Assembly: GCA_010645155.1 (NCBI GenBank)
Contig: CM021314.1
Coordinates: forward strand, 2,234,316-2,298,315
Source: Tigriopus japonicus
Taxonomy: Eukaryota > Arthropoda > Copepoda > Harpacticoida > Harpacticidae
Direction of reading: 5' to 3'
DNA length: 64,000 bases
Part shown: in pieces, positions 17,330 through 61,916 of the stretch
Layout of the letters: each line of letters begins with the position of its first letter
How positions within the stretch are numbered: position 1 is the stretch's first letter
The notes under the pieces: generated by a model
The model's input: the letters and a program-made list of their open reading frames with translations, nothing else
Database searches by the model: none
Told to the model about the DNA's origin: nothing
Made by a program: the position numbers and the translations under genes

Positions 17330-17394
17330 GCAGTGATGGCATAGGAATAAAAAGCCAGTTTCTGCCACCTGGCAGAAAATTGTTCGAAATTGCA

Positions 17395-18115
17395 CTTCAT
17401 TGTTCGAACTAGCCTTGATTCCTTAGGATTTGGAGGTGCTCTCAGGGCGCACGTAAAACCTCTACGATCGCTACAACTGATCTCAAATCCTGGGTTAGGA
17501 CAGAGCCCATGAATGCTCTTGAAAACATACAGTATTGGATACCTTTCATACCTTCTTTGAGTACTGTTTAGCCCAAACTTCTGGAGCCTCTCCCAATACG
17601 AGAGCTCTCTCATTCCTGTGATGTTCCTAGTAAAACATCTTTGGACCTGCTCGACCTTTTGCAAACCTGCTGAACTCATTGGAGCCCAAATGGGTGAGGC
17701 ATATTCAAGATGCGGCTGAACAATCGACTTATACAGAGTTAGCATCGTAATACTATCTCTGGACTTGAAAGTGCGATAGATCCAGCCGCACGTTTGAAAT
17801 GCCTTCCCCACTTTCAACTGGATATGCTCATCAAACTTTCCATCATCTTGGACGACAACTCCCAAATCCCTCATGGACGATACCTGCTCAATATCACAAC
17901 CTCCATTGTCTTTGAGCGGAACATCTAATTTTGACGCCCCATACGACATTGTGCGAAATTTCATCCCATTCAATGCCATATTACTCTCGCCAACCCAAGA
18001 GTAGATTTTCTCCAAGTCCTCAACTAAACATTTTGAGTGCTGACCATTCCTTCCACAAACTAATTTTGTGTCGTCAGCATATGAAGAAATATTGGCTTTT
18101 ACAGAAACAAATTGT
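17395..18115 (-). pseudogene. LINE B reverse transcriptase fragment (3'-truncated)
   Basis: Encodes SSYADDTKLVCGRNG through PPNPKESRLVRTMK, nearly identical to the 33.8-35.7 kb LINE. It starts at the catalytic YADD block and stops mid-thumb where it meets foreign sequence at about 17,395. It lacks both the palm front and the 3' UTR, so it cannot be a simple target-primed insertion; a later deletion or rearrangement is implied. No frame breaks within the LINE portion. Confidence 0.85.
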
Positions 18116-24359: not shown

Positions 24360-24690
24360 GCTACACTGGTGTACGTAAAACAGGGAGTTTTGTCCCCTTT
24401 GCGGAGAGCGATTCGCCGATCAATCGTGACAAAGACGCACGATCCCAAAAGGAAAACATTTTACCTAAGTAAATGGCGGATGGGGCTGCTACTTTTAACT
24501 GTAGAACAGAATCGTGAAAACAAGCATGAGGTATTGATTTCAACATTTAAGATTAATTCCTACATCAATTGTTGAGCAAGCAGTTGAATTCAAAGGCCAA
24601 AATAATCAATAGTGAGATTGCCAATAATTTGAATTACAAATTTGATTCATTCAAAGCATTCAGAAGAGTTTAGAGGAGAATACGAAAGTG
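24360..24690 (+). repeat. Three-copy unit, copy 1, with zinc-finger exon relic
   Basis: Matches 63,608-64,000 (direct) and 42,115-42,700 (inverted). Within it, FCPLCGERFADQS followed one frame over by TKTHDPKRKTFYLSKW parallels the finger-1 exon of the 5.8-kb gene (FCPYCGKGYADRSSQRRHIK). One missing base and loss of the His region make it a pseudogene. This copy has a deletion beside GAGCAAGCAGT relative to the 63.8-kb copy. Confidence 0.8.
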
Positions 24691-25191
24691 ACAGCGCTGC
24701 CAACTCGAAACATTAACAAATCAGTGGAGAGAGGACGCAAAGGACCACGGGCGGACCTTCGCAGATCTATGGTGCTGTCCCAAAAATATGGCTGAACGGC
24801 CAACTCGAAATCCATTTTTTAACTATCGATGAAACTCGAAATCGAACTTGTTCGAGTGTTGCCAAATTGGTCCCTGTTTAGGTCTTCAATAAAACCTGCG
24901 CCTTTTTGCATCAATAAACTTCCGAGTCAAAACTGGCAGCACTCCTGGTTCGAAACAAGTCTCGAGTCTCCAACTTTGCTGGTTGATAGTTGATCGCTTG
25001 GGCAAGTCGCCGCTCACCAGTCGTTACTCGCGCCTACACAAGAAGAAGAGCGCGCTGACCGGCGAGCTTGAGCTTGTAATTGGAACTGTTCTTGAAATCA
25101 AAATCATTCTTCTACAAAGTTGGACGAAGACAACACGTCTCAATTTTGCTAGTGATACTATTTCATTAACCAGAAACGATTGCATTTCAAA

Positions 25192-27783
25192 ATGGCGAGC
25201 TTTTCCTTTAACTTGAAAGCCACCCTATTTGAACCCCAAAGTCAAGGATCCAACGGTAAATTATTTGCTTCTTAAATGGCTCGACATGTTAACCCCAAAA
25301 TTCAAGATATGGCAAGTAATGAACATTTTCAATTTTTTCACTTTCAGATTCCCTAGTTAAGTCCAAAGTTGCGGACATTCTTCAACACATGTCCTATCGC
25401 CTCTTTGATCCTGTGTCTCTGGAATACAAAGGATGGACTGACTATCAAGAGCACCCAAGTACTGAAGAGTGTGCGGAAAATGACATCAGGTTTGTGGCTT
25501 AAGCTACTTTTTTATCATCAAAATATAACAAAAGTTTTCTCTTGGTTCGACTTTTAGCCTCCATATCGAGAACGTCCCAAAATGTCGTAAAGAGAGCAAA
25601 ATCGATAAAATTCCTTTCGTATTTAGAAAATTGTCCATCACGGTTGGAAAGTGGGGGATGGACGTCACGGACTATCATCAGTTCAACCGTACCGGGTTTT
25701 GCGGCTTACAAGGCTGCTTGCCCAATGCTTATTGCAATGCCATGATCCAGGCATTGTATTTTCAAGAAGACATCCGTCAGTGCGTGCTCTGCCATTCGTG
25801 CAATGTGGACAAGTGTTTGGTGTGTGAACTGTCCTTCTTGTTCCACATGATGGATCAGAGCACAGGTTTGCCTTGCCAACCGGCCAACTTCTTGCGCGCT
25901 CTGCGAACGAATTCAGAGGCCATTGCTCTGGGATTGGTGTTTAGTGACAGTGAATCCCAAGGGCGAGCGAACATGAGTGCCGTGGTTCAAGCGTAGAATT
26001 GCTTCATGCTTGGACAATTTGAAGTGATGGACGCTACGCTTGCCCAAAAGAGCAGAATTCAAGGAGTGCAAGTGGCCAAATGCTCCATTTGTCAGGGTTG
26101 CATTAGTGTTGAAAGTGACAATGATAGTTTGTGCACCCTGACCTACCCTAAACCAAAGGTCCAAGTAAGCTTTGAGGACATTTTGTGCACCTCGCTCAAT
26201 GCTGCACAATCAAAGCCTTCTTGGTGTGGCCGTTGTCGGCGTTTTCAAATGGCCAATCAGAAACGCCAGATCCAGTTTTTGCCCTCCTCGCTCACGGTGA
26301 ATACTGGATTGGGTCAAGATGACGACGGCCTCGACTTTTGGCGTGAGCAGAGCGCGCAATTGGCTACTGAATCTGAAGAGGGAGCAGCGAACGGCCAATC
26401 GTGGATCCCCGAGCGAATCACGCTTCAGCGATTGGCCAACGGCAAGCTAAAGGGAGGAGCCACCGAGTTGTCTTCTGCAGAGAGGGAGGAGTTGCTCGAG
26501 ATGGCTCAATATGAGTTGTAAGTATATCGACTAATGTCGATCCATCAAATTGCTAGATGGAATGAAAATAGGAAATTAGACACGCTAGTTATGCGTCGTT
26601 TTAGTTTTCCTGCATATCACAAATAATTTGAGTTATGAAATTACTTGTTTCAGGCATTCCATATGTTACATTGTTATGGATCCAGGAACCGGGCTTCCTT
26701 TGAATGTGTTGGCCGTCGTCAATGTGGGCAGCTTTTATCATGCCAGGGTTGGTTCACCAGTAGGTACTCATTAGTTTCATAAACTCACATTTTCATAGGT
26801 TGTAAATTTTGCTCTCCTCTTCTTTCTATCTAAAGGTCAGTCAATGGTACTTGTTCAATGACTTCAGCATTGATCCCATCAGCATCTCCGAGGCTACAGG
26901 GCACAATCTGGATTGGAGAGTACCAACTTCCATGATTTATCGACGAGTGGGTGCCAAAATCACCGAAGCTCCAAGAAAACCCCTTTTGGACTTCGACATT
27001 TTTAATCCCAGTCGTGGCCAAGGCATGCCCAAGACTTTTTGGCCATTGGAGGCTGATCAAGTTCCTCAACGTGGTGATCTGGTGGGACTTGATGCCGAAA
27101 TGGTCACATTGAAACCGGAAGTTTTGGTCATGGACGAATCTGGCCGGGAACAGATTGTCAAAGCTGCCCAAAGGGCCGTGGCACGTGTCACCTGCATTCG
27201 AGGCTCGGGAAAAATGATTGGAGGTAAACATTGAATTGTTGCATAGTTGTTGTCATCATCTTGACGAATATCTAATATCTTCCTGTTCAATTTTGTAGTA
27301 CCGTTTGTGGACGATTTCATCTCTTGCGAGGAAGAGATCTTCGACTATGTCACTCGGTACTCTGGAATTTACCCTGGTGACCTGGATCCATCGACGAGCT
27401 CCAAATATCTGACGACACTCAAGACCACCTACAAGAAGATCCGGTATTTGGTGGACGCAGGATGCATCTTCGTGGGACATGGGCTCAAGAACGACTTTGA
27501 GGCCCTCAACATTGTTGTGCCCATGGACCAAGTGGTGGATACAGTCCATTTGTTCCACTTGCCCAAGCGGAGGATGCTGTCCTTGCAATTCTTGGCCTGG
27601 TATTTCCTGGGCAAAGTCATCCAAGGTGGGAATCACGATTCCACAGAAGACGCCGTGACCGCCTTGGAGCTCTACGGAAAATACCGCGAGTGTAAGGCCA
27701 TGAATGTTGTCCCCAATGTCCTTCAACAACTGTACGAGGACGCCAAGCTTTGGCAGTGGAAGGTGCCCGATCACAGTGGTTAG
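25192..27783 (+). pseudogene. PAN2-like: PAN2-like deadenylase, copy 1 (WD40-less, one TAG)
   Basis: Six exons: 25,192-25,255; 25,348-25,489; 25,558-26,517; 26,654-26,759; 26,836-27,223; 27,299-27,783; all GT-AG, phases consistent, 2,145 nt (714 codons). PAN2 is the catalytic poly(A) ribonuclease of the PAN2-PAN3 complex. Visible are the UCH-like domain (CLPNAYCNAMIQALYF, CxxC pairs CHSC and KCSICQGC) and the DEDD exonuclease: LVGLDAEMV, FVGHGLKNDF, HDSTEDAVTALELY, all acidic residues present. The N-terminal WD40 region of full-length PAN2 (about 1,200 aa in animals) is absent; translation would start at MASFSFNLKATLF. Codon 215, a conserved Trp (TGG in copy 2), is TAG at 25,994-25,996. AATAAA follows at 27,816. 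Either a recent pseudogene, a recoded gene, or an assembly issue. Confidence 0.85.
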
Positions 27784-27815
27784 TTAGGTCTTGAGCAATG
27801 TCATTAAATGAACTC

Positions 27816-27821
27816 AATAAA
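27816..27821 (+). terminator. Polyadenylation signal, PAN2 copy 1
   Basis: AATAAA 33 bp after the stop codon; conserved in copy 2 at 38,787-38,782. Confidence 0.7.
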
Positions 27822-27888
27822 GTGGATATATTTTTGTAAATCAATCAATTTGATTCATTTGTTCATTTTTGATCAATTTTGATCTGTG

Positions 27889-27962
27889 CTAAGCAGTGGA
27901 GCAGTATATTGTGGGCCACGTTTGACTAGGTGGACCACAATATACTGCTCCACTGCTTAGCT
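27889..27962. repeat. Near-perfect hairpin at the 5' edge of LINE C
   Basis: GCTAAGCAGTGGAGCAGTAT... is inverted as ...ATACTGCTCCACTGCTTAG around a short spacer. One side is the LINE C codons for DHNILLHCL, the other its inverse, so the hairpin was made by an inverted duplication at the LINE's truncated 5' end. It is present in both arms (38,645-38,715). Confidence 0.8.
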
Positions 27963-28636
27963 GCCTTAGGAATAGGGACATTGTTCATACTTGGTTTAAA
28001 AACTTTTTGAACAACCGCACCCAAACTGTGATAGTAGAAAGAAACTTTGGACACACTCGAAATGCTTATCTGAAAATAATCTTATATACTATCTATATAC
28101 GTATATAATCTTATAGCCTTATATACTGAAAATTCAAGATTAAAGATCTGGGTGTTGCTATAGAGAACACTGGCAAATTTGAAGAACATGACAAAATCAT
28201 ACTTTCCAAAGCGTTTCAAACATGTGGGTGGATTTATCGCACTTTTTGTTCCAGAGATCCATTCACTATGAAAACGAGCTATTAATCTTTTGTCCAGCCT
28301 CATCTGGAATACGCCTCGCCCATTTGGGCCCCAATAACTGCGGCAGGGCTAAATAAAATCGAAAAGGTCCAGAGAAGCTTTACTCGTTGTATTTCTGGAA
28401 TGAAGACTCTGAATGATTGGGAAAGGCTCGAAACTCTTGAAATCCACAGTGTTCAACGAAGGGACGAGGTATACCTAATCTTATACGTCTTCAAAAGTCT
28501 TGATGACCTATGTCCGAACCCAGGAATTGAGCACTCCTATATCGAGAGACCCAAAGTGTCTTCCTACCTCCTCCGACAACAAGCTGTCAAAGAATTCAAA
28601 AGCCTCCTTTGTTTTGAACAGAGGACCCAATTTGTA
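27930..28636 (+). pseudogene. LINE C reverse transcriptase relic, left arm
   Basis: Reads DHNILLHCL at the start, then after an internal deletion DLGVAIENTGKFEEHDK, TCGWIYRTF, VQPHLEYASPIWAPI and DDLCPNPGIEHS, a divergent relative of LINE B. It is interrupted by stops, and the MULE at 28,637 splits it; it resumes at 30,084-30,200 (LPEYLRRFYVF, FLQTIPDQ). Confidence 0.8.
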
Positions 28637-28837
28637 TCTGGGCAATAAAGCAAGAGAGGAATCTGATAGGTTGCGTAGTCGAATTCTCATAAAGTTCCGC
28701 CCCTTTACTATCAAAGCGAGAAATCCACGGTTTTTAACTTGATTTCTTACAAATCCGTTTAAACTGTAAACGTTCTGCTTTTATGTTTTCTGACCTACAA
28801 AAGCACATTCAAGTTGCAAAATGAATACATCAAATAT

Positions 28838-29108
28838 TAGTGATTTCACTTTGATTATTGTTTCACTTCCACTGTTTATTGCTAAATTATTAAGGTCAAA
28901 AGATCATTGAAAATGCAACTTGACATTCTTTTCTTCTAAGTCACACTGCAAGCATCTGAAATCTTCTAAGAGCAACTGCCGGCAACTGCATCTTCCAATG
29001 TTCCTTGAGCTTGGGAAGTGTATTGGTGTATTGCCCAAGTAATGCTTGTCAACAACTTGTGCTTGGGGTGTCTGTGATGACTCATTACTTGCCCAAGTCA
29101 CATCACTA
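28838..29108. mobile_element. hAT MITE, 271 bp, nested in the MULE
   Basis: TAGTGATT...CATCACTA flanked by TCAAATAT at 28,830-28,837 and 29,109-29,116. It matches the right part of the 705-bp element at 20.8 kb. Confidence 0.85.
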
Positions 29109-29208
29109 TCAAATATCATTTTTTGACATTTTAGAAACTTCTGCAAGCATTCCCATGTGTTAGCTGCGTTGGGGGTCACGGATTCTGCCAATGAGAAAAG
29201 TGGTTAAG

Positions 29209-29633
29209 CTTCAGATCAAGAAGTTGGAGATGTCATCGAAAGTTCAGCGGGCTTAAATGCCATGACAGCAGGGGACATGGTCATCCAAAACGACGAAGAC
29301 CAATCAGAGGTACAGTTGTAGTGTTTTTACAGCATAACATATTTTCTAAAGATCATTGTTTTTTAGGAAATTGATGTATCCCGTCTTGGACAAACAATGG
29401 AAGATCTACACACCAAGCTGAGAGAAAAAGTTCAGGATATTCAAGACGTCATTAGCTCGGCAGACGTTGAACCAAAGTACAAGATGAGTTTGATTGAATC
29501 CGTGAAATCTGCGATTGACAGTATTCCAAGTGTCAAGAATCCGTCAAGTTTTCCTCGTTTGGAAAGAAAAAGAACGCATCCAGTTCTGAATCCTTCGTTT
29601 TTCCCTTGCAAACGTAACAAGCCAACCAACTAA
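29209..29633 (+). pseudogene. C-terminal tail of MULE transposase, two exons
   Basis: Exon one ends ...IQNDEDQSE at a GTACAG donor (29,311); exon two begins EIDVSRLGQTMEDLHTKLRE after TTTTTAG and ends at 29,633. Charged, likely coiled-coil (EDLHTKLREKVQDIQDVI) with a basic end. A TAA separates it from the SWIM piece upstream, so no intact protein. Confidence 0.55.
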
Positions 29634-30199
29634 CTAACTCACCTTTGCTTATGTCTAGTAGTCTTATTTTTGCTTTAGTTTTGAACTTCCCACATTTAAT
29701 TTCTTTTTATTTCAAGGCAAACGATATTTTCTCGACGTGTTTGTTTATTTTCATTGTTCCTTTTTATGGGATCTATATTATGTTAAGATGGTTGAGAAAA
29801 CCAATAAAAAGTTCATTTGATGTATTCATTTTGCAACTTGAATGTGCTTTTGTAGGTCAGAAAACATAAAAGCAGAACGTTTACAGTTTGTTGGGATATT
29901 GAAGTTAGCTGCTTTGGTGATTTTTGAGATTGGATTCAATGTGGAAGAGATTTGGGACCAAACGGATTTGTAAGAAATCAAGTTAAAAACCGTAGATTTC
30001 TCGCTGTGATAGTGAAGTGGCGGAACTTTATGAGAATTCGACTACGCAACCTATCAGATTCCTCTCTTGCTTTATTGTCCAGACAATTTGTACTTCCAGA
30101 ATATCTCCGACGATTCTACGTATTTGATGAACCTCTATACAGTTTGAAACGTGACTTGGATCGTTTCCTACAAACGATCCCAGACCAACTATTCTAGGG

Positions 30200-30980
30200 A
30201 AGCTAAGTTATTCATCACTGGACCAAATATTTTACAAAAATGACCTTTATGACTTCTTACTGGGAATCCGTTCCTTTGTATCGGTTAAAAATCCGCGAAA
30301 GAGCTAAAAAAAATTCGTGGGTCATTTGATTCGATTGCCGTTTTCACTTCACTCACTATCCTAGTTTACCTTTTAGTTTAGGGCCACCAGGAATGGAAAG
30401 AAAAAAGATTAATTTCATGCAATTACTATATCAGCTATGATTTCTGGCGAATGATTGTTTTCGAATGGGTTGACTTAATAACAATTGAAGATTAATTTGA
30501 AATTGTTGATGTCGGTGATTTAATTTTAAGATTTCATTTAATTCAAGAACATTTAATTCCTTGACGTTATTATAAATAACAAATCCCAAATAAAACTATA
30601 CTGGCAAGGAATCAGTTCTCCAAATTAAAGGAACCAAATGAAATTCTGGGAAAATGTCCAAATGGAAATGGCAACATTTTTAACCCTTTAATTACGGTGA
30701 CATGAAGTAGTTTGTCTTTAGATCTCATTTTTTTCATCATCAAAATTACTGCTGCAACTGAACGCATGATAAGTTTCATTAGCGTAAGATTTGGGCTCTA
30801 ACGTGATTAAATGGGACTTTTATGGTTGAAATTACATTTTGGTGTATGGAGAGGCAAACTGATGGGTCTTGCAGTATAATTTTTGACTAAGGTTCCAATG
30901 TCGGCCTTCATCAGGCTTTGTTTGGGGGAAAGATTTGGTACCATATAATAGCATTGTAGGTCACATCTTGGAAAAGCAGG
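30200..30980. other. Arm sequence without a gene
   Basis: 30,200-30,420 matches the other arm (37,880-37,680, inverted). 30,420-30,970 is absent from the other arm, an insertion here or deletion there; no TIRs seen. Confidence 0.55.
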
Positions 30981-31216
30981 GGCCTGTTTATTTTGGTACA
31001 ATGAAACAATGATATGCTAGAAAGCCGAAAATAGGTCCTTACTGAAGCCCTTATATATATTTACGTTTTCATTGAGAAAGAGTGCATCCTTTCATGGAGT
31101 AAGACGTCTAAAAAAGTGCTCTTCAGCCACTTGCGATTCCGAAGCTTGTGCTGTGTCAAAAAAAGTTTCTTTGCATGACTCTTGTGTTCGTATGCTATTA
31201 CCTAACAGAGCGATGA

Positions 31217-33744
31217 CTGATGATTTTGATTTGCATTCATTGAAAAGCCATGCTGAGGAGGCAAAAGATGAGGGCTCCTTCGGAGTGAAGCTGAATAACA
31301 TCTTGAGGGACCATTATTAAGACCTGCAAGTTCCGAGGACATAAGGGCTCTCTGGTATGGATTTAATGGAAAGAACTTCCAACAAATAAAAAAGGAAGAA
31401 GTCGTCAAAGCACTCTGCCTTGCGTGCAAGCTCATCAGCAAAGGTTTTTGGACCTCAGTTGATGAAAAACAAAAGCAGATTCAAAGCCAGCAAACGTGTG
31501 GAAGTCTCCAGTCTGATGATGACTACTCAGCAGGGATTGAACTCGATGAGAATGTCCAATCCAAGATTGATGAGGAAATAACTTCTATTAGCCAAGAAGA
31601 AGGGAAAAACTTGCTGACTAACTCTTCCGCCGACGAGACTAGTAATAAGTCTTCAGAGGTAGGAACAAAAACAACCCCAGATTGCAGATTCTACAAACAG
31701 GGCCGCTGCATGAAGGGAAAACAATGCTGTTTCTCACACCGTCCACTTTGGAGCCCATTTGTGGCGCACGGACATCTTGAGGGGGGATGTGGAAAAGGGA
31801 AGGCGTGTGATCAAATGCATGTTATCCACTGTCTTGGCTCTAGAAAAGGGTATCCGTGTCAAACACCATCTTGTCGTTATCGATTCCATGTGAGACCAAG
31901 GGATGGCACTCGAGACCGTCGTGCCGTTGGCCAACGTAATGATTCAGGTGGCAGAGCTCACCGCCAAATGTTTGGGGAACGGCGTGCTCAAAGTGGTTTT
32001 GGCTCAAGCAAAAAACGGGCGCATTCCATGAGAACACGGGATCTGGCAATAACAAAAATAATAACAGCAGAAAAAATAAAAACAGAAGAAGCAACAACAA
32101 CAATCAAAGAAAAGCGAACTTGACAAACGCAATGCCTCACTCCCCCTCTTTTTTAGACCAAGGCCAAATAATGGAAAAGAGGATGGCATCTATAGAACAA
32201 GCACTTTAAAGAATCGAGCATCTGTCTGGCAAAACCCAGACGCCAACTCAAATTGCCTGGTCAGTTCCAAGAGGAGGCTTACTCCCGTGAATGAGCCCAA
32301 TCTCCCAAAACAAAATAATTCCAAACAAAACACACATATCAGAATGATCTCCCTAAATATTGGCAGAGGACTCTTCAGCAAAGAAGAAGAAATAAAAACA
32401 CTCACCAGTACATACAAGCCCCAAGTACTTCTCCTACAAGAGACTGATCTAGATGACTACGACAACAAGAGACCATTCCACCTTCCAAGATTCACCACCT
32501 TTGTGGGGGGGTGATACCAAGAAAAGAATCATGTCCTTTGTCAACATGCAAATGTTCAGAAGTTGCGACACCACAAAAAGCTCAAGAGGACAACAAATGT
32601 GGCTTAGACTCGAATTACCCAACGGCAAGGTCATCAAATTATGCAATTTATCCAGAGACTGTATAGCGAGACAGTCAACATCAGGACCTACAAAACCTAC
32701 TGGATGATATGGAAAAACCACGTCCTAGCAGCTGGAGATTGGAATTTAGATCTCGAGAAAACTGCAAACAACCCTGTCAAAGAGATGACGCAATCCACAA
32801 GAGCCAGACTAAGACAAATGGGGTTCATGTTATACTCTCCTGGACCTACTTGGAAAAGACTGGTTCGGGGACAGGAGAGGACATCAAGCTTGGACTGGGC
32901 TGCTTTCAAAGGACACTATCACCCAAAAGTAAGCAAATTTGCAACATGTAGTGACCGTGATGCCCTGGTAATAGACCTACCCATTCAAACACCATCGATC
33001 ATAATGAAGTCTGGAAGATATTAGAGGAGCTGTTTGGAACCAAGGAGGCAATGAAAATCCAAACAGAAACACAGGGAGTCTTCACAAAAGAAGGGGACAT
33101 ACTAAGAATCAATTCTTCATGGAAAAAATACAGAAGCTAAGAAGCAAGCTTCCATCCAAATCCAAATCTTTTGATCCTTTCAAACATGCTAAGGACCTGG
33201 CAAGAGAGAAGAACCTCCAAGAAGACTCCTTTGCATTCATGGAAGTGCCATCCAAGTCCATCTTCAAACTGATGGGCAAAATGGCCAAATCCAGTGCACA
33301 AGACATGGATGGACTGACTCCTAACATCATCAAAATGTATGGCCATTCTATTGTAACCTCTCTCAATATGGTAATAAACCAAGCCATACGAGAGAGCACA
33401 TTCCCAGAGTGCTTGAAGAAGCCTAGAGTGGTACCAATCCATAAAAAGGCTCAAAGACAAAAGCGGAAAATTATTGGCCAATCCATCTTGTGCGTGGACT
33501 CTCTAAGGTCTTGGAAGCCACACGCTGACGAACTTCATGGAGTCACAAGTCATCCCAAATGAGCAACATGGATTTAGAAGAGACCACTCCACCAGCTCAG
33601 CCATCAACATGATTGTTGACATGTTATCGGAAGCCCTACACAAGAAGGAGAGGGCTGCCATCCTCCTATTTGACCTTATTGATCTGGTAGACAACCACAT
33701 CCTGCTGCAGAAACTCAAGATTTTTGGCCTTCAAGCCTCATCAC
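31217..33744 (+). pseudogene. LINE A: CCCH ORF1, endonuclease, start of RT
   Basis: ORF1 part (about 31,330-32,123): acidic region, then CCCH knuckles, first CRFYKQGRCMKGKQCCFSH, then another with CRYRFH. ORF2: APE endonuclease pieces MISLNIGRGL, VLLLQETDL, GDWNLDL and SDRDALVIDL (32,340-32,985), then RT fingers (DMDGLTPNIIK, RVVPIHKK, NEQHGFRRDHSTSS, ILLFDL, ILLQKLKIFGLQASSL). At least three frameshifts (near 32,030, 32,510 and 33,455). The sequence is cut at 33,744 by the hAT element and resumes at 36,447 (NLIKSFMTIRSTVG). Confidence 0.8.
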
Positions 33745-36438
33745 TAAAGCGGCCGAAAATATTTAATTTTAAAAGCCAAATAAGTAGAGTAAGTAAGCCA
33801 AGAAGTAGAGTGATCCAGGAGGTTAAGACTAATCCAAAGGCGTTTTTCTCGTTTGCGAATACAAAGAGAAAAATGAAGCATCCTGTAGGACCTTTTGAGG
33901 TCGGCGGTAAAACCGTCAATGATAGTGAGGTTATGGCCAGTATGCTTGGAGATCAGTTCTCAAGTGTATTTTCAATTCCAAAAAGGGTAGTCAGAGCAGG
34001 CCATGACTGTAGCAATGTTTTTGATGAGACTGGCATTGATAGTCAGGATAATCGACTGGAGGATCTGGTAGTCACAGATCAAGATGCTTTTGAGGCCATC
34101 AAGAGCTTAAAGCTCTCGAGTTCTCCTGGACCTGATGGTGTGACATCTCAGTTTCTGATGAAATGTTCACAGATTCTTGCCCCTGTTTTCTCCTATTTGA
34201 TGCGTTGCATTTTAGATCAGGGCAAGTTTCCCTCCTCTCTAAAAGTAGCTCATGTCGTTCCAATTTTTAAGGGCGGAGATAAGTCACTCCCTAGTAATTA
34301 TAGGCCCATTTCTCTGACCTCCAGCGTTGCAAAGGTTTTTGAGAAGATTATGAAGTCCAAGCTTGTAGATTATTTGGAAGTCCATGATTTAATTCCTTCT
34401 GGACAGCATGGGTTTCGAGCTCATTTTAGTACAGTAACCCAATTGGTTGATCATATTGAGCAAATCATTGAAGGGCTCGAAAGTCATGAGTCAGTTGATG
34501 TAGTCTATCTTGACTTTGCCAAGGCCTTCGATAAGGTAGATCATGGTCTTTTGCTCGATCAACTCAAAGAGTTAGGGGTCCAGGGTAAGGTCCTGACTTG
34601 GATTGATAGTTTTATAAGCGAAAGGAAGCAAATAGTTAAAGTCGAAGGATCTTTTAGCGGCATGTATGATGTCAAGTCAGGTGTTCCGCAAGGTTCAATT
34701 TTAGGTCCGCTCTTGTTTATTCTCTTTATTGCTCCTCTCCAGAATTTTAGAACAAAAGCCAGTATTTCTTCATATGCTGATGACACAAAATTAGTTTGTG
34801 GAAGGAATGGGCAGGACTCGAAATGTTTAGTTGAGGACTTGGAGAAGGTCTACTCTTGGGTTGGCGAGAGTAACATGGCATTGAACGGGATGAAATTCCG
34901 CACAATGACGTATGGGGCGTCAAAATTAGATGTTCCTCTCAAAGACAATGGAGGTTGTGATATTGAGCAGGTATCGTCCATGAGAGATTTGGGAGTTGTC
35001 GTCCAAGATGATGGAAAGTTTGATGAGCATATCCAGTTGAAAGTGGGGAAGGCATTTCAAACATGCGGCTGGATCTATCGCACTTTCAAGTCCAGAGATA
35101 GTATTACGATGCTAACTCTGTACAAGTCGATTGTTCAACCGCATCTTGAATATGCCTCACCCATTTGGGCTCCAATGAGTTCGGCAGGTTTGCAAAAGGT
35201 CGAGCAGGTCCAAAGATGTTTTACTAGGAACATCACGGGAATGAGAGAGCTCTCGTATTGGGAGAGGCTCCAGAAGTTAGGGTTGTACAGTACTCAGAGA
35301 AGGTACGAAAGGTATCTGATACTGTATGTTTTTAAGAGCATTCATGGGCTCTGTCCTAACCCAGGATTTGAGATCAGTTGTAGCGATCGTAGAGGTTTTA
35401 CGTGCGCTCTGAGAGCACCTCCAAATCCTAAGGAATCAAGGCTAGTTCGAACAATGAAGTCCTCCTCTCTTCTTTATCGGGCTCCTTCATTGTTCAATTT
35501 GTTACCCATTAGTCTTCGTAGGGAATATGTTGGAGCTGATCCTCTAACAGCATTTAAGGCAGGATTGGACAAATTCTTAAATACTATTCCTGACCAACCC
35601 ACTATACAAGGGTTGTATAGATCTGCCAACAATAACTCATTGGTAGATCAAATTTCATATAAACATTAATTATTGAAAATATAATAATGATTAACTCTCT
35701 TTACAGGGAATCCCATTCCTTGTAGCGGTATTGAAAAATCCGCCCCCCCCCCAAAAAAAAAAAAAGAAATATTTAAATAATATTTAAGGAAAAACTATCA
35801 AAATATTTAAATTACAACCAAATATTTAAAAAATATTTAAATTTGTTAGGAGTTTGGAGCAATAAATTGGTATTTTTGAAAATTTTGATTAAAAAATCCA
35901 AATATTTGAATGGCAGAAATATTCGTAAACAAATCTTCAGTGCTAAAAAATCATACCGGGCAATGAAAATTGGTTATTCTTGGCAGTCCTTATTTATACC
36001 CTACATACATTTAGTTAATACATTTTACTGCCTAGGGTTTCGTTGAATATCCAAACTAGAGTTTCAGTATTTCTTTCCTGTTGGAGTTACGGTTTTCTAT
36101 TTAAGATTAAGATCTATTGTAATTTTGAGGCCAAGCAGATCATTTTTTTTATTTCCCACGCATATTTTCCATTTTAATTTGCCTATTCCAATCAAAAAAA
36201 GTCATAAAAGTTAAAAAATTGGAAGATTTTGACAATGCAGTTTTTGGAAAGGTCAGATTTTTTGTCAAAATTTCAAAAGATTTGCTGAAATTGTGGAGAT
36301 TCTTGGAATGTTTCAATGAAAAACGGGAATCTTCCTTTAATTTTAGAAGAAAAAGCCCAAATATTTAAAAACTGCTCAAAAACGCAAAATGTTTAAATTA
36401 AATATTTTTTATTTAATTAAATATTTTCGGTCGCTCTA
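33745..36438. mobile_element. hAT element inserted in LINE A, 2.7 kb
   Basis: Ends TAAAGCGGCCGAAAATATTT and inverted TAGAGCGACCGAAAATATTT, flanked by CTCATCAC at 33,737-33,744 and 36,439-36,446. Removing it rejoins LINE A's reverse transcriptase in frame (LQASSL / NLIKSF). AAATATTTAA-type motifs recur at 35,767-35,910 and 36,355-36,425, typical subterminal repeats. It has no transposase; LINE B fills most of it. Confidence 0.85.
33770..35757 (+). mobile_element. LINE B, 5'-truncated, intact RT frame
   Basis: An uninterrupted reverse transcriptase runs to a stop at 35,669: fingers (SSPGPDGVTSQFL, VVPIFKGGDKSLPSNYRPIS, QHGFRAHFST), palm (YLDFAKAFDKVDH, GVPQGSILGPLLF, SYADDTKL) and the thumb/C-terminal region (LEYASPIWAP, WERLQKLG). 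The 3' UTR ends in a C-run and A-tail (35,743-35,765). CR1/Jockey-like by motif spelling. Endonuclease and ORF1 are lost by 5' truncation, so it is not autonomous. The open frame starting at 33,537 fuses 69 LINE A codons and the hAT end to it by chance. Other copies: 3.8, 12.4, 17.4, 42.7 and 54.5 kb. Confidence 0.9.
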
Positions 36439-36446
36439 CTCATCAC

Positions 36447-36520
36447 TAAACCTTATCAAGTCATTCATGACAATCCGCTCTACAGTTGGCGACCGGAGAC
36501 ACCATTGTGTTCTATAAATA
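36447..36520 (+). pseudogene. LINE A continuation
   Basis: NLIKSFMTIRSTVGDR follows directly from the block before the hAT element, confirming a single interrupted reverse transcriptase. It is cut again at 36,521. Confidence 0.75.
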
Positions 36521-37065
36521 CTAGAGGGAGTGTAAGCCTAAAAATTTGTCTCCGGTCGCTAACTGTTGAGCGGACAAAAGTTCGGGAAAATTTGAAATGT
36601 GTGACCAGGCCAATGTCAACCATGCAATTGATGAATCAAATGTGGAATTGAGTAATGTTTTTGGGTCATTTTTTGTTTTTGCTAGTAGTCACTTTCTTGA
36701 AAGAACCGAAGACGTCATTAGGTGTTCATGCCTTGGATTTGAATACTTCAACTAGGAACGTTTTTGCCAATACATTGAATAAGTCACTAGTAGGAAGAAC
36801 ACAAATTTAAGCCTTTGGGTTATGTAAGGTTAATCCAATACATATGTGGACAAAAAATAACTTGTGGCTTCAAGATCAATTTCAAAAAAGTTGGTCTTGA
36901 TATGCATGTTTGGTCACACTAACTGTCCACTCAACAGTTGCGAGGGCGACATTTTCCTCATAAATTTTCTGCCCGGCTTGCCAAATCAGCCTGACTAAAG
37001 CTTGCACGCTATCTAGAAATAAATGATCTAAGGGAGACACATTTTTAGGCTTACACTCCCTCTAG
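36521..37065. mobile_element. TIR element, CTAGAGGGAG ends, TA duplication
   Basis: CTAGAGGGAGTGTAAGCCTA at the left is inverted at the right end, each next to TA (36,519-36,520 and 37,066-37,067). The TA suggests a Tc1/mariner-type MITE. A deleted relative is at 3,275. Confidence 0.7.
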
Positions 37066-37254
37066 TATTATTAAAACTCAATGTTACAAACCCTAAGTAA
37101 ATTCACAACAATAGAGAGGGTAACTCAACAGCTGACCTCCCTCTTTTTGAGCGTTTGGCGCGAGTAGCCTGAGACTGTACATCGAGTGAACTCATTTCTA
37201 TGACCGGAGAGTGTTTGCTTCAAACCCCGTCCGTGTGTGTCCGTGTGTGTGTCC

Positions 37255-37440
37255 GTGTCGGACACAAATCTTGATCCACACTGGATCATTCTCCATTCGG
37301 TTCCATGATCCTGCATCAATGCAAAACCGAGGCCTTGCAGACGGGATGCATCAGTCAACGATTTGATTGGTAGGACCGGATTGAAATGGGCCAACACTGG
37401 CGGTGACGAGAGAATTTGACGTGCCTCATCATCGCTCTGT
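37255..37440 (-). pseudogene. Gypsy LTR retrotransposon RNase H fragment
   Basis: Minus-strand translation DEARQILSSPPVLAHFNPVL, then LTDASRLQGLGFALMQ and MIQCGSRFVSDTD, is the RT/RNase H connection of Ty3/Gypsy Pol (the TDAS box contains the first catalytic Asp). It starts exactly where the inverted-repeat homology ends (37,433) and decays into a GTGTGTCC simple repeat at 37,230-37,260. Confidence 0.8.
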
Positions 37441-37899
37441 TAGGCAGTAGCATACGAACACAAGAGTCATGCAAAGAAACTTTTTTTGACACAGCACAAG
37501 CTTCGGAATCGCAAGTGGCTGAAGAGCACTTTTTTAGACGTCTTACTCCATGAAAGGATGCACTCTTTCTCATTGAAAACGTAAATATATATAAGGGCTT
37601 CAGCAAGGACCTATTTTCGGTTTTCTAGCATATCATTGTTTCATTGCTATAATTATAGATATAGTAATTGCATGAAAATATATCTTTTTTTCTTTCCATT
37701 CCTGGTGGCCCTAAACTAAAAGGTAAACTAGGATATAGTGAGTGAAGTGAAAACGGCAATCAAATCAAATGACCCACGAATTTTTTTTTCAGCTCTTTCA
37801 CGGATTTTTAACCGATACAAAGGAATGGATTCCCAGTAAGAAGTCATAAAGGTCATTTTTGTAAAATATTTGGTCCAGTGATGAATACCTTAGCTGCCC

Positions 37900-38680
37900 T
37901 AGAATATAGGGTTGGTCTGGGATCGTTTGTAGGGAACGATCCAAGTCACGTTTTAAACTGTATAGAGGTTCATTTAAACGTAGAATCGTCGGAGATATTC
38001 TGGAAGTACAAATTGGGTCCTCTGTTCAAAACAAAGGAGGCTTTTAAATTCTTTGACAGCTTGTTGCCGGAGGAGGTAGGAAGACACTTTGGGATGCAGT
38101 TTATACCTCTCCTCTCGATATAGGAGTGCTCAATTCCTGGGTTCGGACATAGGTCATCAAGACATTTGAAGACGTATAAGATTAGGTATACCTCGTCCCT
38201 TCGTTGAACACTGTGGAATTCAAGAGTTTCGAGCCTTCATTCCAGAAATACAACGAGTAAAGCTTCTCTGGACCTTTTCGATTTTATTTAGCCCTGCCGC
38301 AGTTATTGGGGCCCAAATGGGCGAGGCGTATTCCAGATGAGGCTGGACAAAAGATTAATAGCTCGTTTTCATAGTGAATGGATCTCTGGAACAAAAAGTG
38401 CGATAAATCCACCCACATGTTTGAAACGCTTTGGAAAGTTTGATTTTGTCATGTTCTTCAAATTTGCCAGTGTTCTCTATAACAACACCCAGATCTTTAA
38501 TCTTGAATTTACAGTATATATGGCGCACAGATTATTTTCGGATAAGCATTTCGAGTGTATCCAAAGTTTCCTTCTACTATCACAGTTTGGGTGCGGTTGG
38601 TCAAAAAGTTTTTAAACCAAGTATGAACAATGTCCCTTATTCCTAAGCAGTGGAGCAGTATATTGTGGTCCACCTTGTCA
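37900..38680 (-). pseudogene. LINE C reverse transcriptase relic, right arm
   Basis: Same relic as at 27.9-28.6 plus 30.08-30.2 kb, here without the MULE: the empty site CAATTTGTA is present once. The 5' end FDKVDHNILLHCLGIRDIVH is better preserved than in the left arm. Confidence 0.8.
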
Positions 38681-38819
38681 AACGTGGCCCACAATATACT
38701 GCTCCACTGCTTAGCACAGATCAAAATTGATCAAAAATGAACAAATGAATCAAATTGATTGATTTACAAAAATACATCCACTTTATTGAGTTCATTTAAT
38801 GACATTGCTCAAGACCTAA

Positions 38820-41475
38820 CTAACCACTGTGATCGGGCACCTTCCACTGCCAAAGCTTGGCGTCCTCGTACAGTTGTTGAAGGACATTGGGGACAACATT
38901 CATGGCCTCAAACTCGCGGTATTTTCCGTAGAGCTCCAAGGCGGTCACGGCGTCTTCAGTGGAATCGTGATTCCCACCTTGGATGACTTTGCCCAGGAAA
39001 TACCAGGCCAAGAATTGCAAGGACAGCATCCTCCGCTTGGGCAGGTGGAACAAATGGACTGTATCCACCACTTGATCCATGGGCACGACAATGTTGAGGG
39101 CCTCAAAGTCGTTCTTGAGCCCATGTCCCACGAAGATGCATCCTGCGTCCACCAAATATCGGATCTTCTTGTAGGTGGTCTTTAGCGTCGTCAGATATTT
39201 GGAGCTCGTCGATGGATCCAAGTCACCAGGGTAAATTCCAGAGTACCGAGTGACATAGTCGAAGATCTCTTCCTCGCAAGAGATGAAATCGTCCACAAAC
39301 GGTACTACAAAATTGAACAGGAAGATATTAGAAATTCTTCAAGATGATAACAACAACTATGCAACAATTCAATGTTTACCTCCAATCATTTTTCCCGAGC
39401 CTCGAATGCAGGTGACACGTGCCACGGCCCTTTGGGCAGCTTTGACAATCTGTTCCCGGCCAGATTCGTCCATGACCAAAACTTCCGGTTTCAATGTGAC
39501 CATTTCGGCATCAAGTCCCACCAGATCACCACGTTGAGGAACTTGATCCGCCTCCAATGGCCAAAAAGTCTCGGGAATGCCTTGGCCACGACTGGGATTA
39601 AAAATGTCGAAGTCCAAAAGGGGTTTTCTTGGAGCTTCGGTGATTTTGGTACCCACTCGTCGATAAATCATGGAAGTTGGTACTCTCCAAACCAGATTGT
39701 TCCCTGTAGCCTCGGAGATGCTGATGGGATCAATGCTGAAGTCATTGAACAAGTACCATTGACTGACCTTTAGATAGAAAAAAGAGGAGAGCAAAATTTA
39801 CAACCTATGAAAATGTGAGTTTATGAAACTAATGAGTACCTACCGGTGAACCAACCCTGGCATGATAAAAGCTGCCCACATTGACGACGGCCAACACATT
39901 CAAAGGAACCCCGGTTCCTGGATCCATAACAATGTAACATATGGAATGCCTGAAACAAGTTATTTTATTGCTCTGATTATTTGTAATATGCAGGAAAACT
40001 AAAACGACGCATAATTAACGTGTCTAATTTCCTATTTTCATTCCATCTAGCAATTTGATAGATCGACATTAGTCGATATACTTACAACTCATATTGAGCC
40101 ATCTCGAGCAACTCCTCCCTTTCTGCAGAAGACAACTCCGCGGCTCCTCCCTTTAGATCGCCGTTGGCCAATCGCTGAAGCATGATTCGCTCGGGGATCC
40201 ACGATTGGCCGTTCGCTGCTCCCTCTTCAGATTCGGTAGCCAATTGTGCGCTCTGCTCCCGCCAAAAGTCGAGGCCGTCGTCATCTTGACCCAATCCAGT
40301 ATTCACCGTGAGCGAGGAGGGCAAAAACTGGATCTGGCGTTTCTGATTGGCCATTTGAAAACTCCGACAACGGCCACACCAAGAAGGCTTTGATTGTGCA
40401 GCATTGAGCGAGGTGCACAAAATGTCCTCAAAGCTTACTTGGACCTTTGGTTTAGGGTAGGTCAGGGTGCACACATTATCATTGTCACTTTCAACACTAA
40501 TGCAACCCTGACAAATGGAGCATTTGGCCACTTGCACTCCTTGAATTCTGCTCTTTTGGGCAAGCGTAGCGTCCATCACTTCAAATTGTCCAAGCATGAA
40601 GCAATTCCACGCTTGAACCACGGCACTCATGTTCGCTCGCCCTTGGGATTCACTGTCACTAAACACCAATCCCAGAGCAATGGCCTCTGAATTCGTTCGC
40701 AGAGCGCGCAAGAAGTTGGCCGGTTGTCAAGGCAAACCTGTGCTCTGATCCATCATGTGGAACATGAAGGACAGTTCACACACCAAACACTTGTCCACAT
40801 TGCACGAATGGCAGAGCACGCACTGACGAATGTCTTCTTGAAAGTACAATGCCTGGATCATGGCATTGCAATAAGCATTGGGCAAGCAGCCTTGTAAACC
40901 ACAAAACCCGGTGCGGTTGAACTGATGATAGTCCGTGACGTCCATCCCCCACTTTCCAATCGTGATGGACAATTTTCTATATACGAAAGGAATTTTATCG
41001 ATTTTGCTCTCTTTACGACATTTTGGGACGTTTTCGATATGGAGGCTAAAAGTCGAACCAAGAGAAAACTTTTGTTATATTTTGATGATAAAAAAGTAGC
41101 TTAAGCCACAAACCTGATGTCATTTTCCGCACACTCTTCAGTACTTGAGTGCTCTTGATAGTCAGTCCATCCTTTGTATTCCAGAGACACAGGATCAAAG
41201 AGGCGATAGGACATGTGTTGAAGAATGTCCACAACTTTGGACTTAACTAGGGAATCTGAAAGTGAAAAAATTGAAAGTGTTCATTGCTTGCCATATCTTG
41301 AATTTTGGGGTTAACATGGCAAATGGAAAAAAAGTGAAATGCGTTCATTGAGTACCATATCTTTAATTTCGGGATAAACATGATGAGCCATTCAAGAAGC
41401 AAATAATTTACCGTTGGATCCTTGACTTTGGGGTTCAAATGGGGTGGCTTTCAAGTTAAAGGAAAAGCTCGCCAT
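38820..41475 (-). pseudogene. PAN2-like: PAN2-like deadenylase, copy 2 (WD40-less, one TGA)
   Basis: Exons, minus strand: 41,475-41,412; 41,255-41,114; 41,045-40,086; 39,949-39,844; 39,767-39,380; 39,304-38,820. The lengths equal copy 1 exon by exon (64, 142, 960, 106, 388, 485 nt). The same UCH-like and DEDD exonuclease motifs are intact, and the Trp215 that is TAG in copy 1 is TGG here. Instead codon 175, TGC (Cys) in copy 1, is TGA at 40,729-40,727, just after MDQSTGLP. A poly(A) signal lies at 38,787-38,782. The gene converges on copy 1. Taken alone this copy would stop inside the UCH-like domain; an internal start would give a UCH-tail plus exonuclease protein. Pseudogene is the simplest reading. 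Confidence 0.85.
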
Positions 41476-42114
41476 TTTGAAATGCAATCGTTTCCGGTTA
41501 ATGAAATAGTATCACTAGCAAAATTGAGACGTGTTGTCTTCGTCCAACTTCATAGAAGAATGATTTTGATTTCACGAACAGTTCCAATTACAAGCTCAAG
41601 CTCGCCGGTCAGCGCGCTCTTCTTCTTGTGTAGGCGCGAGTAACGACTGGTGAGCGGCCACTTGCCCAAGCGATCAACTATCAACTATCAACAAAGTTGG
41701 AGACTCGAGACTTGTTTCGAACCAGGAGTGCTGCCAGTTTTGACTCGGAAGTTTATTGATGCAAAAAGGGGCAGGTTTATTGAAGACCTAAACAGGGACC
41801 AATTTGGCAACACTCGAACAAGTTCGATTTCGAGTTTCTTCGATAGTTAAAAAATGGATTTCGAGTTGGCCGTTCAGCCATAATTTTTGGACAGATAAGG
41901 TCTCTTGCCCGTTGATAAGTTGACTTGTGGTCAGATTTTTGACCCTAAAGACCAAAATGGCAAAACTCTGCCAAAAATCCGACTCGAAACACGTCAGCAC
42001 CATAGATCTGCGAGGGTCCGCCCGTGGTCCTTTGCGTCCTCTCTCCACTGATTTGTTAATGTTTCGAGTTGGCAGCGCTGTCACTTTCGTATTCTCCTCT
42101 AAACTCTTCTGAAT

Positions 42115-42700
42115 GCTTTGAATGAATCAAATTTGTAAGCCAAATTATTGGCAATCTCACTATTGATTATTTTGGCCTTTGAATTCAAATTGGCCATCTA
42201 ATTTATGATGGATTATGATCTATTTTTATGGGAGGAGACGTGGTGTCATGGTTAGCGCAGTTTCCATTAGTGAGAGAGGTCCCAGGTTCGATTCTCCTCC
42301 CCGACCTTTCTCAAGGAAACTTTTAGACGTTAATCCACACCCACAGACGGAGAACCTTTCTGATACCGGACTTGAAATTGCCTATCGGAAATGATTTGGA
42401 CGATGTGATGGCTGGCTTCGCTGACCGGGCGAGGCTCAACCCTCCGACCCAGGCACCAACAATCCAAAGTAATTGATTGTACGGATCGTGGATTTACGGC
42501 TACTGCTTGCTCAACAATTGATGTAGGAATTAATCTTAAATGTTGAAATCAATACCTCATGCTTGTTTTCACGATTCTGTTCTACAATTAAAAGTAGCAG
42601 CCCCATCCGCCATTTACTTAGGTAAAATTTTTTCCTTTTGGGATCGTGCGTCTATGTCACGATTGATCGGCGAATCGCTCTCCGCAAAGAGGACAAAACT
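42115..42700 (-). repeat. Three-copy unit, copy 2, with zinc-finger exon relic and SINE
   Basis: Inverted copy of 24,360-24,690 and 63,608-64,000. The zinc-finger relic (CPLCG-type, here AACTCGT-flanked and shortened near 42,700) is present. The SINE at 42,234 is specific to this copy. Confidence 0.8.
42232..42475 (+). repeat. tRNA-derived SINE, copy 2
   Basis: Starts GGGAGGAGACGTGGTGTCAT, with A-box TGGTTAGCGCAG and B-box GGTTCGATTC, matching copy 1 at the window start. It ends near CAACAATCCAAAG. The 63.86-kb copy of the surrounding unit lacks it, showing the empty site between GTACAATCAATTA and GGCCAATTTG. Confidence 0.8.
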
Positions 42701-42702
42701 CG

Positions 42703-42785
42703 TATAGTTTCAATAATTAATGTTTATATGAAATTTGATCTACCAATGAGTTACTGTTGGCAGATCTATACAACCCTTGTATCGA
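42703..42785 (-). mobile_element. LINE B fragment (83 bp)
   Basis: Encodes the end of LINE B (LYRSANSNSLVDQISYKH) on the minus strand, without the 3' UTR. It sits at the join between the three-copy unit and the 42.8-44.6 kb repeat. Confidence 0.8.
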
Positions 42786-44563
42786 ATCAACTATGACGTC
42801 AAAAAATCTTTGAGCATTTGTTTCACACGCAAGATGGTTGATCAACCCTCGACTATGGAATTTTTGTAATCCTGGCCAACTTCTTATCGTCCCGCCTACT
42901 TTTCCACGGTCGATCGATTGTCTTCCCTTACTCATACCTTCAGTTTCGGTAAATAACTAAGTTTAGCGAATGTTTCATAATTGTTCACCTATTTTTTTTG
43001 TTGCATTCGGGTTCTATTCGGGGAGGGTAAAAAATCTGCCTTCTTTTTATTTGCTTCGAACATATTGTGTAATCAATGCCCTTCACAAGCGTCCCAGTTT
43101 CGATTACTCTGAAAAGCAAACTTTATCTTCATCTACTAAATACAATTTCACACCTCCAACTTTCGGCAAAACTTCGACTAGAGATTATCGACAGAAAACG
43201 GAAAAAATGTCGCTCAGATTTTGAATCAATTCCCTCGAGCAATCGATAGCTCTCGCCAAAGACACGCTAAGTGATTGATTGACTGAGGGAGGTTGAACTC
43301 TGCAGGAAGATTAAGTCTGCGTCCTCTTAACAATTCAATGGGCCAGGATATGAAACCAGAATAAAATTCGTAAACGTTTGTCGTTGATGATCCGTCTCAA
43401 TTATTCTAAATTTAAAAACGTTGGGGTCCTGATAGAAACAGATACAATCAACGGCGTTTAAATATTCCGTCCAAAAGTGGGTCATTCTAATACCACTCAC
43501 GAACCCAACAAAAGACTGATCTGTCCGATTCGCTTTGAAAACCCAATGGGCCATTTGATGTTTTCATCAATATCTTAAATTTCATTTGAATTTGGCGTAT
43601 TAATTTGTTTTCCTACCATGTGACAAACCAGGAATCCCTGGAAGGGTTCCTTTAATTTGTTAATATAATATAGGTTATCCTTGGACAAACAGATATAAAG
43701 CAAACTCTCGACTAGATTGCCACCTTGCATTCATATAAATTCAAATGAATAAAAAGGAATAAATAATCAACTACATTCTAGTATTGAAGGGGGCATTAGA
43801 CAGTTGTGAAACATGACAAAGACAATAGCATTACTTCAAAATTGATGACAGAATTTGCACACATATCTGCCTCATTTCGGGTGGATGATAAATTGAGCTC
43901 TCCAAATCAAGGCTAATTCACACCAACAGATGAATGCTAGAGCGGGAGAATTCAAGTAAAGATCAAGAAAATCAATCCCAATCAAAGATTGATTACAATT
44001 CCAAGTCATATTCCTGTAGAATCATTAGCCAATTGGTTTTCCCTCGGACAAGCAAGACAAATGATCCAAATTGGCAAAGAGAAACTTTGCCGATCCAGTA
44101 CAGTACATAATGCTCACTAGTTACCCACAAATTACCCACAATGCCCACAAATACGGGAATGCTTACCTCACCAGAACTGTTTCATTTGTTTTCCTCAAAT
44201 AGCGATCAGAATGAAGTGTGTTTGGGTCATTGAAAAAAGTTCAAAACGAAGAAGAGCTCAGGAAGTTTTAGAGCTCTAGTTATCAACAAGTGTGAAGCTT
44301 TGGTCTACGCAATGATGATATTACAAATAAGTGGAAACCACCTTGGTTTTGCAAACCTAGACCATTTCAATTAAATGACTTCTCCATTTCCCTGTGTTCT
44401 ACTATTGTAAGTTGCTACGTGGTAAATTTAGTTTTGGTGTGAGTAGTAGTGTTGCAAATAATTGAGGATTGCAAGCGTTCTAAGAAGTTGCCATTTTTAA
44501 TTGTCTCTTCAAACAAAGCGGTGCCTCCGAAAAAGTGAGAATGGCTTTGTTTGGGTCATTCAC
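42786..44563 (-). repeat. Second inverted repeat, left arm
   Basis: Inverted match to 62,916-62,040 and, beyond the mariner insertion, 60,195-59,316. The 75-codon frame at 43,554-43,327 (MAHWVFKANRTDQSFVGF...) is identical in the other arm. I cannot assign it to a family, and a relative at 7.9 kb has no matching open frame, so coding is doubtful. Confidence 0.85.
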
Positions 44564-59315: not shown

Positions 59316-60194
59316 AAATGACCCAAACAAAGCCATTCTCACTTTTTCGGAGGCACCGCTTTGCTTGAAGAGACAATTAAACATGGCAACTTTTTAGAAC
59401 GTTTGCAATCCTCAATTATTTGCAACACTACTACTCACAACATAACTAAATTTACCACGTAGCAACTTACAATAGTAGAACACAAGGAAATGGAGAAGTC
59501 ATTTCATTGAAATGGTCTAGGTTTGCAAAACCAAGGTGGATTCCACTTATTTGTAAAATCATCATTGCGTAGGCCAAAGCTTCACACGTGTTTATAACTA
59601 GAGCTCTAAAACTTCCTGAGCTCTTCTTCGTTTTGAACTTTTTTCAATGACCCAAACACACTTCATTCCGATCGCTATTTGAGGAAAACAAATGAAACAG
59701 TTTGGCGAGGTAAGCATTCCCGTATTTGTGGGCATTGTGGGTAATTTGTGGGTAACTAGTGAGCATGATGTACTGTACTGGATTGGCAAAGTTTCTCTTT
59801 GCCAATTTGGATCATTTGTCTTGCTTGTCCGAGGGAAAACCAATTGGCTAATGTTTCTACAGGAATATGACCTGGAATTGTAATCAATCTTTGATTGGGA
59901 TTGTTTTTCTTGATCTTTACTTGAATGCTAGAGCGGGAGAATTCATCTGTTGGTGTGAATTAGCCTTGATTTGGAGAGCTCAATTCATCATCCACCCGAA
60001 ATGAGGCAGATATGTGTGCAAATTCTGTCATCAATTTTGAAGTAATGCTATTGTCTCTGTCATGTTCCACAACTGTCTAATGCCCCCTTCAATGTAGTTG
60101 GTTATTTATCCCTATTTATTCATTTGAATTTATATGAATGCAAGGTGGCAATCTAGTCGAGAGTTTGCTTTTTATCTGTTTGTCCAAGGATAAC

Positions 60195-61670: not shown

Positions 61671-61916
61671 TTCCATCAGGTCCTCTTGTTGAGATTTGAA
61701 AGTAACGCGAGGAAGTGACAACAAGTAAATCCTCAAAGTACCTTTGATGATCGTGGATTTGGAACAAAAAGTGGTCCAAAATTTAGCCAGTACCAGCTAC
61801 AGAGGGGTCAATTCATTCTCTTTAATGTGTTTAGTATTCTTGAAAGTATGTTGTTCAGCTGCTGAGTTATTTGAATTTAACCGGTTCATTTTTGGCCCAA
61901 AAAAGCGAAAAAACGT
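61667..61916 (+). repeat. Direct repeat, copy 2, inside the mariner insertion
   Basis: Second copy of 57,805-58,053, positioned where the mariner 3' end should be. The remaining 61,917-62,022 is AT-rich filler up to the TA target site. Confidence 0.8.

Follow-up and report, generated by a model that had tools for sequence, protein, structure and literature searches.

We analysed a 64,000-nucleotide stretch of the Tigriopus japonicus genome (contig CM021314.1, hereafter the window), which carries two copies of a short PAN2-like gene in an inverted duplication. Copy 1 lies on the plus strand at 25192..27783 (exons 25192-25255, 25348-25489, 25558-26517, 26654-26759, 26836-27223 and 27299-27783) and copy 2 on the minus strand at 38820..41475 (exons 41475-41412, 41255-41114, 41045-40086, 39949-39844, 39767-39380 and 39304-38820); the two genes are convergent. 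Their exon lengths are identical (64, 142, 960, 106, 388 and 485 nt), which gives frames of 714 codons, 715 with the stop, and the introns have GT...AG borders in 10 of 10 cases. The exonuclease motifs LVGLDAEMV, GHGLKNDF and HDSTEDA are present in both translations, and an AATAAA signal stands 3' of each gene (27816..27821, plus strand, for copy 1; 38782..38787, minus strand, for copy 2). A self-comparison of the window gives 98% complementarity across 2676 nt between the arms 25285-27960 and 38643-41318. Each copy contains one premature stop in exon 3: TAG at codon 215 of copy 1 (25994..25996, plus strand), three introns before the normal stop, where copy 2 reads TGG; and TGA at codon 175 of copy 2 (40727..40729, minus strand), where copy 1 reads TGC. 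A first-pass annotation made from the letters of the window had described these genes with their splice sites, exonuclease residues, poly(A) signals and different nonsense codons, and our models agree with it on each of these points.

We then searched the whole assembly (158 contigs, 194.85 Mb; the window is on contig C11) with the DNA of copy 1. The best other copy is at C12:216478-219073, with 93% identity. Its 714-codon frame is uninterrupted, its exon lengths are those of the window copies, and it reads TGG at codon 215 and TGC at codon 175; thus both stops are private to the copies that bear them. Further matches were found on C12 (53382-55744, and pieces inside 159664-161117 and 74412-74950), together with an exon-1 piece on C132 and a locus at 68–70% identity on C1 (C1:8575304-8577301). 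The C12 copy at 53 kb has stops, frame changes, one of them within exon 1, and altered splice sites; in all, at least four copies on C12 and C132 are decayed or fragmentary. The C1 paralogue, modelled by hand from splice signals, has an intact frame of 749 codons in six exons. It was considered as a candidate for the canonical PAN2 and rejected: roughly 10 kb upstream of it contain nothing that matches the WD40 portions of beetle and coral PAN2, so that it is another short form, and the canonical, WD40-bearing gene is at C2:9050909-9054764, its main block sharing 70% identity with the protein Tk02899, a label that we take to denote T. kingsejongensis. Between the intact C12 and C1 members the ratio of nonsynonymous to synonymous rates (dN/dS) is about 0.17–0.20 over 634 codons, with synonymous sites near saturation. 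In a more distant member at 4.58 Mb of C1 the UCH exon is interrupted in frame by at least one stop, the matched stretch containing two TAA, and the 10-kb locus yielded no exonuclease.

The short genes form a family with its own architecture. The nearest named protein is from T. californicus (59% identity), and the intact C12 copy contains the domains UCH_1 (PF13423, E 1.7e-66) and RNase_T (PF00929, E 3.4e-17). The exonuclease motifs, which we take to be of the DEDDh type, are kept in all four short members checked. In a large protein set the C12 copy retrieved six T. californicus short-form records and the C1 paralogue five of those six; P0003 and P0005 share a single gene number, and in some models exons are missing, as in P0002 and P0007, which lack part of the exonuclease. 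A tree of 16 selected PAN2 sequences groups the nine short forms in one clade (support 100/100); its stem, 1.03 changes per column long, adjoins a canonical PAN2 in the midpoint-rooted drawing. The first-pass annotation had called the window genes WD40-less. This stands, as no WD40 domain is present in the 714- and 749-codon models, but the absence is common to the whole short family and is not damage, which could not be seen from the window. The linker motifs by which PAN2 binds PAN3 were found in 3/3 canonical PAN2s against 0/4 short forms, and so was the CCCH insert (3/3 against 0/4). A comparison of four short-form leaders with five canonical PAN2s did not recover the PAN3 linker (PID), the best blastp match (E 0.33) falling outside it. 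An AlphaFold model of T. californicus P0001, built on a 28-sequence alignment, has a mean predicted local distance difference test score (pLDDT) of 71.6. Its body is best matched by the solved UCH-exonuclease modules of Neurospora and yeast Pan2 (4czw, E 1.1e-45), and residues 1-98, with pLDDT below 50, are read as disordered in this prediction.

A feature that the first-pass annotation could not see is that exon 1 encodes a motif of the PAM2 type. It is FNLKATLFEP in copy 1 (codons 6-15, 25207..25236, plus strand), FNLKATPFEP in copy 2 (codons 6-15, 41431..41460, minus strand), FNLSATPFKP in the C12 copy and LNLYAKEFQP in the C1 gene, the last matching exactly the consensus LNxxAxEFxP given in the consulted part of PMC7356810. 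The extract of PMC2854688 describes position 3 as usually Leu and occasionally Pro or Phe, and position 12 as usually Pro; Ala at position 7 and Phe at position 10 are called invariant. A PAM2-like motif is present in 6/6 T. californicus short-form records against 0/47 other PAN2 homologues, some of these 47 being fragments without the N-terminus. P0003, P0005, P0007 and P0021 have three motifs each; P0001 and P0002 have one each, with Met at position 7. The C1 member at 4.58 Mb (L033 5312-5043, minus strand) has five tandem motifs spaced by 20 residues, in one open frame before the UCH exon. Across seven aligned leaders the only invariant residues are M1, F4, N8, F14 and P16 (numbering of the first row), of which N8, F14 and P16 are PAM2 positions 4, 10 and 12. 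As for the background, the Ala-type pattern has 1 unrelated match in the 127,996 six-frame codons of the window and 0 in 79,984 codons from four further loci. We propose from these alignments that the leader motif would be a PAM2-type hook for the MLLE domain of the poly(A)-binding protein (PABP); two MLLE domains are found in the genome, on C9 and C7, both with KITGMLLE.

The partner of canonical PAN2 was examined for the same motif. The PAN3 gene is on C5, with 93% identity to T. californicus PAN3 (the query being a rough concatenation of the local exons), and PAM2 patterns have no match in 20 kb of this locus. At the place of PAM2 the local PAN3 (C5:7413879-7413373) and that of T. californicus (P0054) both read NINHIQEFVP, with no Ala at position 7; cockroach PAN3 reads VTPQAPEFVP. 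In a survey of the best 120 of 836 PAN3 matches, 55 rows have the anchor SKLxxYM, and 11 of these 55 keep the Ala-type PAM2. None of the 33 rows ranked nearest Tigriopus does so; the only genera identified there are Tigriopus and Eurytemora, and "copepod" is our inference for the group. The 22 more distant anchored rows comprise 11 with Ala, 10 with Ser at position 7 and 1 with nothing. Since Ser occurs in 10 of these 22, the lost Ala is less special than it looks; as an alignment result it hints that PAN3's own hook may be weakened in this lineage.

To return to the window pair, copies 1 and 2 differ by a dN of 0.013–0.014 and a dS of 0.036–0.047, a dN/dS of 0.27–0.38; this comparison, which the first-pass annotation had proposed as a check, is not neutral. 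The dS of each copy to the C12 copy is 0.11–0.13. We polarised the changes by the C12 copy, excluding six unpolarisable codons, all of them nonsynonymous. On the branch of copy 1 there are then 11 synonymous changes, 7 nonsynonymous ones and 1 stop; on that of copy 2 the numbers are 9, 7 and 1. Neutrality would give 74% nonsynonymous changes; 14 of 34 were observed, against 20 synonymous (P 5e-5), or 20 of 40 when the six unpolarised codons are counted as nonsynonymous (P 9e-4). The 2145 coding bp of the two copies align without a gap. The non-coding parts of the arms, with 1850 aligned bp, have 8 gap openings, a rate at which 9.3 coding gaps are expected (P about 1e-4). The remark of the first-pass annotation that the genes are not long decayed is thereby borne out. 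Because both copies were under constraint and lack coding gaps, they were apparently functional during much of the period after the duplication, the stops coming late. From these counts we read the window genes as recently broken inverted duplicates, with one recent nonsense mutation each; two nonsense copies are in themselves ordinary. Codon-level polarisation had seemed clustered by eye, as might be left by conversion between the arms; the 66 polarised differences across exons, introns and near flanks give no such signal (32 runs against 34.1 expected, P 0.35, a runs test of modest power).

How would the intact members work? Known background, drawn from extracts of PMC4158885, is that Pan3 binds the Pan2 linker, provides RNA binding and carries a PAM2 motif, and that isolated Pan2 is unable to bind RNA. 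According to the sections consulted of PMC6547884, the WD40 domain tells long from short poly(A) ribonucleoproteins (RNPs), and Pan2 without it trims 40A RNPs normally. We consider it probable that the window genes are recently broken members of a Tigriopus short-PAN2 family whose intact members are PABP-docked deadenylases acting without PAN3. Such members would be active enzymes that reach poly(A) tails without PAN3: the leader PAM2, one to several per protein, would bind directly the MLLE of PABP, and the pseudo-hydrolase/exonuclease module would then shorten the tail. Having lost the WD40 domain, they would no longer sense tail length or the oligomer state of PABP; with the recognisable linker motifs gone, they would be uncoupled from PAN3. 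We infer binding, activity and PAN3 independence from an architecture, its conservation and its constraint, all of which are observed.

Several points weigh against this proposal. In the same extracts, Pan2 without WD40 is impaired on 90A RNPs and is not stimulated by Pab1 (PMC6547884); an enzyme lacking this domain might therefore perform poorly on long tails. PAM2 alone binds weakly, at about 40–150 uM for Pan3 (PMC4158885, in part), so a single motif might not suffice. The Met of P0001 and P0002 is at a position called invariantly Ala in the source consulted, and Phe at position 3, found in most members, is permitted there as a less usual residue. The putative loss of PAN3 binding is deduced from missing sequence motifs. 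The five-motif copy, with its in-frame UCH stop and no exonuclease in its 10-kb locus, is probably not an enzyme. Finally, given the fast turnover of copies, some members of the family may be dispensable.

A plain alternative holds the short genes to be a side branch of PAN2 that can be done without and in which copies arise and die, and the window pair to be nothing more than decaying duplicates. A premature stop upstream of introns is expected to trigger nonsense-mediated decay, and this is the layout of both window copies, each stopped in exon 3, three introns before the normal end; the four or more decayed or fragmentary copies of C12 and C132 point the same way. For the window copies alone this account is compatible with the one we favour. 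For the family it appears unlikely, in view of the dN/dS between the intact members, the constraint that persisted after the inverted duplication, and the PAM2 anchors conserved over deep divergence. We give somewhat less weight still to the stops being assembly or sequencing errors, read-through codons or segregating alleles, with both copies functional. One stop in each, no coding gaps and constraint along the entire frame would fit this. A short neutral period nevertheless also yields one stop per copy: about 1.4 are expected per 34 neutral changes and 2 are seen.

The broken copies might instead still act, either through truncated products of 214 or 174 residues (PAM2 and part of the UCH domain) that compete for PABP, or through double-stranded RNA from the convergent arms that silences the C12 gene. 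Both stops come after the PAM2 exon, the arms are 98% complementary and the C12 copy is 93% identical. Downstream of the stops, however, 5 of 11 (P 0.04) and 6 of 14 (P 0.013) changes are nonsynonymous, and constraint there fits recent stops better than a long-used truncation. The signal becomes weaker when three unpolarised codons are added (8/14, P 0.13, and 9/17, P 0.05). We hold continued action of the broken copies, in either form, to be very improbable. As for the idea of the first-pass annotation that the defects are complementary and that conversion between the arms regenerates an intact gene, the inverted geometry would permit it. But an intact copy exists on C12 and no mosaic appears among the polarised differences, within the modest power of the test; we regard this regeneration as barely credible, and a reading of the two defects as complementary repair is not needed.

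Beyond the PABP-docked deadenylases that we favour, a broader history can be put forward tentatively. In these copepods PAN2 itself would have taken over PABP docking from PAN3, whose PAM2 is degenerate. A PAN2 duplicate would have shed the WD40 domain, PAN3 linker and zinc finger, gained one or more PAM2 motifs and become a fast-evolving, PAN3-free, length-blind family in which copies quickly arise and are lost; conflict over the poly(A) tails of mRNA or transposons may have been the driving force. This scenario is possible but doubtful.

The surroundings of the pair show several other features. Homology of the arms extends piecewise on either side of the 2676-nt core: by self-alignment the left arm (plus strand) covers 24385..28636 with further pieces at 30084-30432 and 30999-31216, and the right arm (minus strand) covers 38007..42701 with further pieces at 37658-38015 and 37429-37646. 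Just 3' of each gene, the stretches 27889-27960 and 38643-38714 also match their own reverse complement and form a short hairpin. The segment 28637-30083 is an insertion missing from the other arm; it is flanked by 124-nt inverted repeats (28637-28760 and 29960-30083, 96%) with an identical 9 bases on either side (28628-28636 and 30084-30092), and has the structure of a terminal-inverted-repeat transposon that presumably arrived after the duplication. Between the arms, the frame of 710 amino acids at 33537-35669 includes a domain of the reverse transcriptase type (PF00078, E 2.2e-31); partial copies of this frame are found at 17394-18100 in the window and on C12. Sequence upstream of copy 2 is itself in a second inverted duplication (42780-44560 and 59317-62917, 95–97%), with relatives of about 86–88% next to the C12 copy. 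A repeat at 42224-42369 and 2-147 resembles by eye a tRNA-derived short interspersed element; an ARAGORN scan of the window gave no tRNA. A search of a phage collection gave no match, as expected.

In the openly licensed literature searched, mostly by title and the start of the abstract, we recognised no report of a PAN2 paralogue with PAM2 or of Tigriopus PAN2. Deadenylation subunits are described as broadly conserved in PMC5862402, the consulted part of which mentions no such paralogue. What is new here is thus the domain arrangement of a known enzyme. If the proposal is true, a natural PAN2 reduced to the catalytic module and equipped with a PABP hook would amount to a separation-of-function experiment done by nature, and would show whether PAM2 docking alone targets a deadenylase and what purpose length sensing serves. 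The motif numbers of 1, 3 and 5 would offer a natural avidity series. The broken window copies show that turnover of the family is ongoing.

Set beside known systems, the short forms resemble canonical PAN2 in their pseudo-UCH and DEDDh exonuclease module, catalytic motifs and predicted fold. They differ in having no WD40 domain, linker motifs or CCCH insert and in carrying one or more N-terminal PAM2 motifs. The PAN2 of the known complex relies on PAN3 for contact with RNA and PABP, and its WD40 domain gauges tail length (PMC4158885 and PMC6547884, in the parts consulted). With PAN3 the short forms share a PAM2, which in PAN3 serves for docking on the PABP MLLE domain (PMC4158885, in part), but they are nucleases and not pseudokinases. 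With eRF3, Paip2, Tob and LARP4B, as far as the extracts consulted describe them, they share a hydrophobic residue at position 3, N at 4, A at 7, F at 10 and P at 12, in a leader that is modelled without order; here, in contrast, the PAM2 is fused to the deadenylase itself, and one degraded copy bears five of them in tandem.

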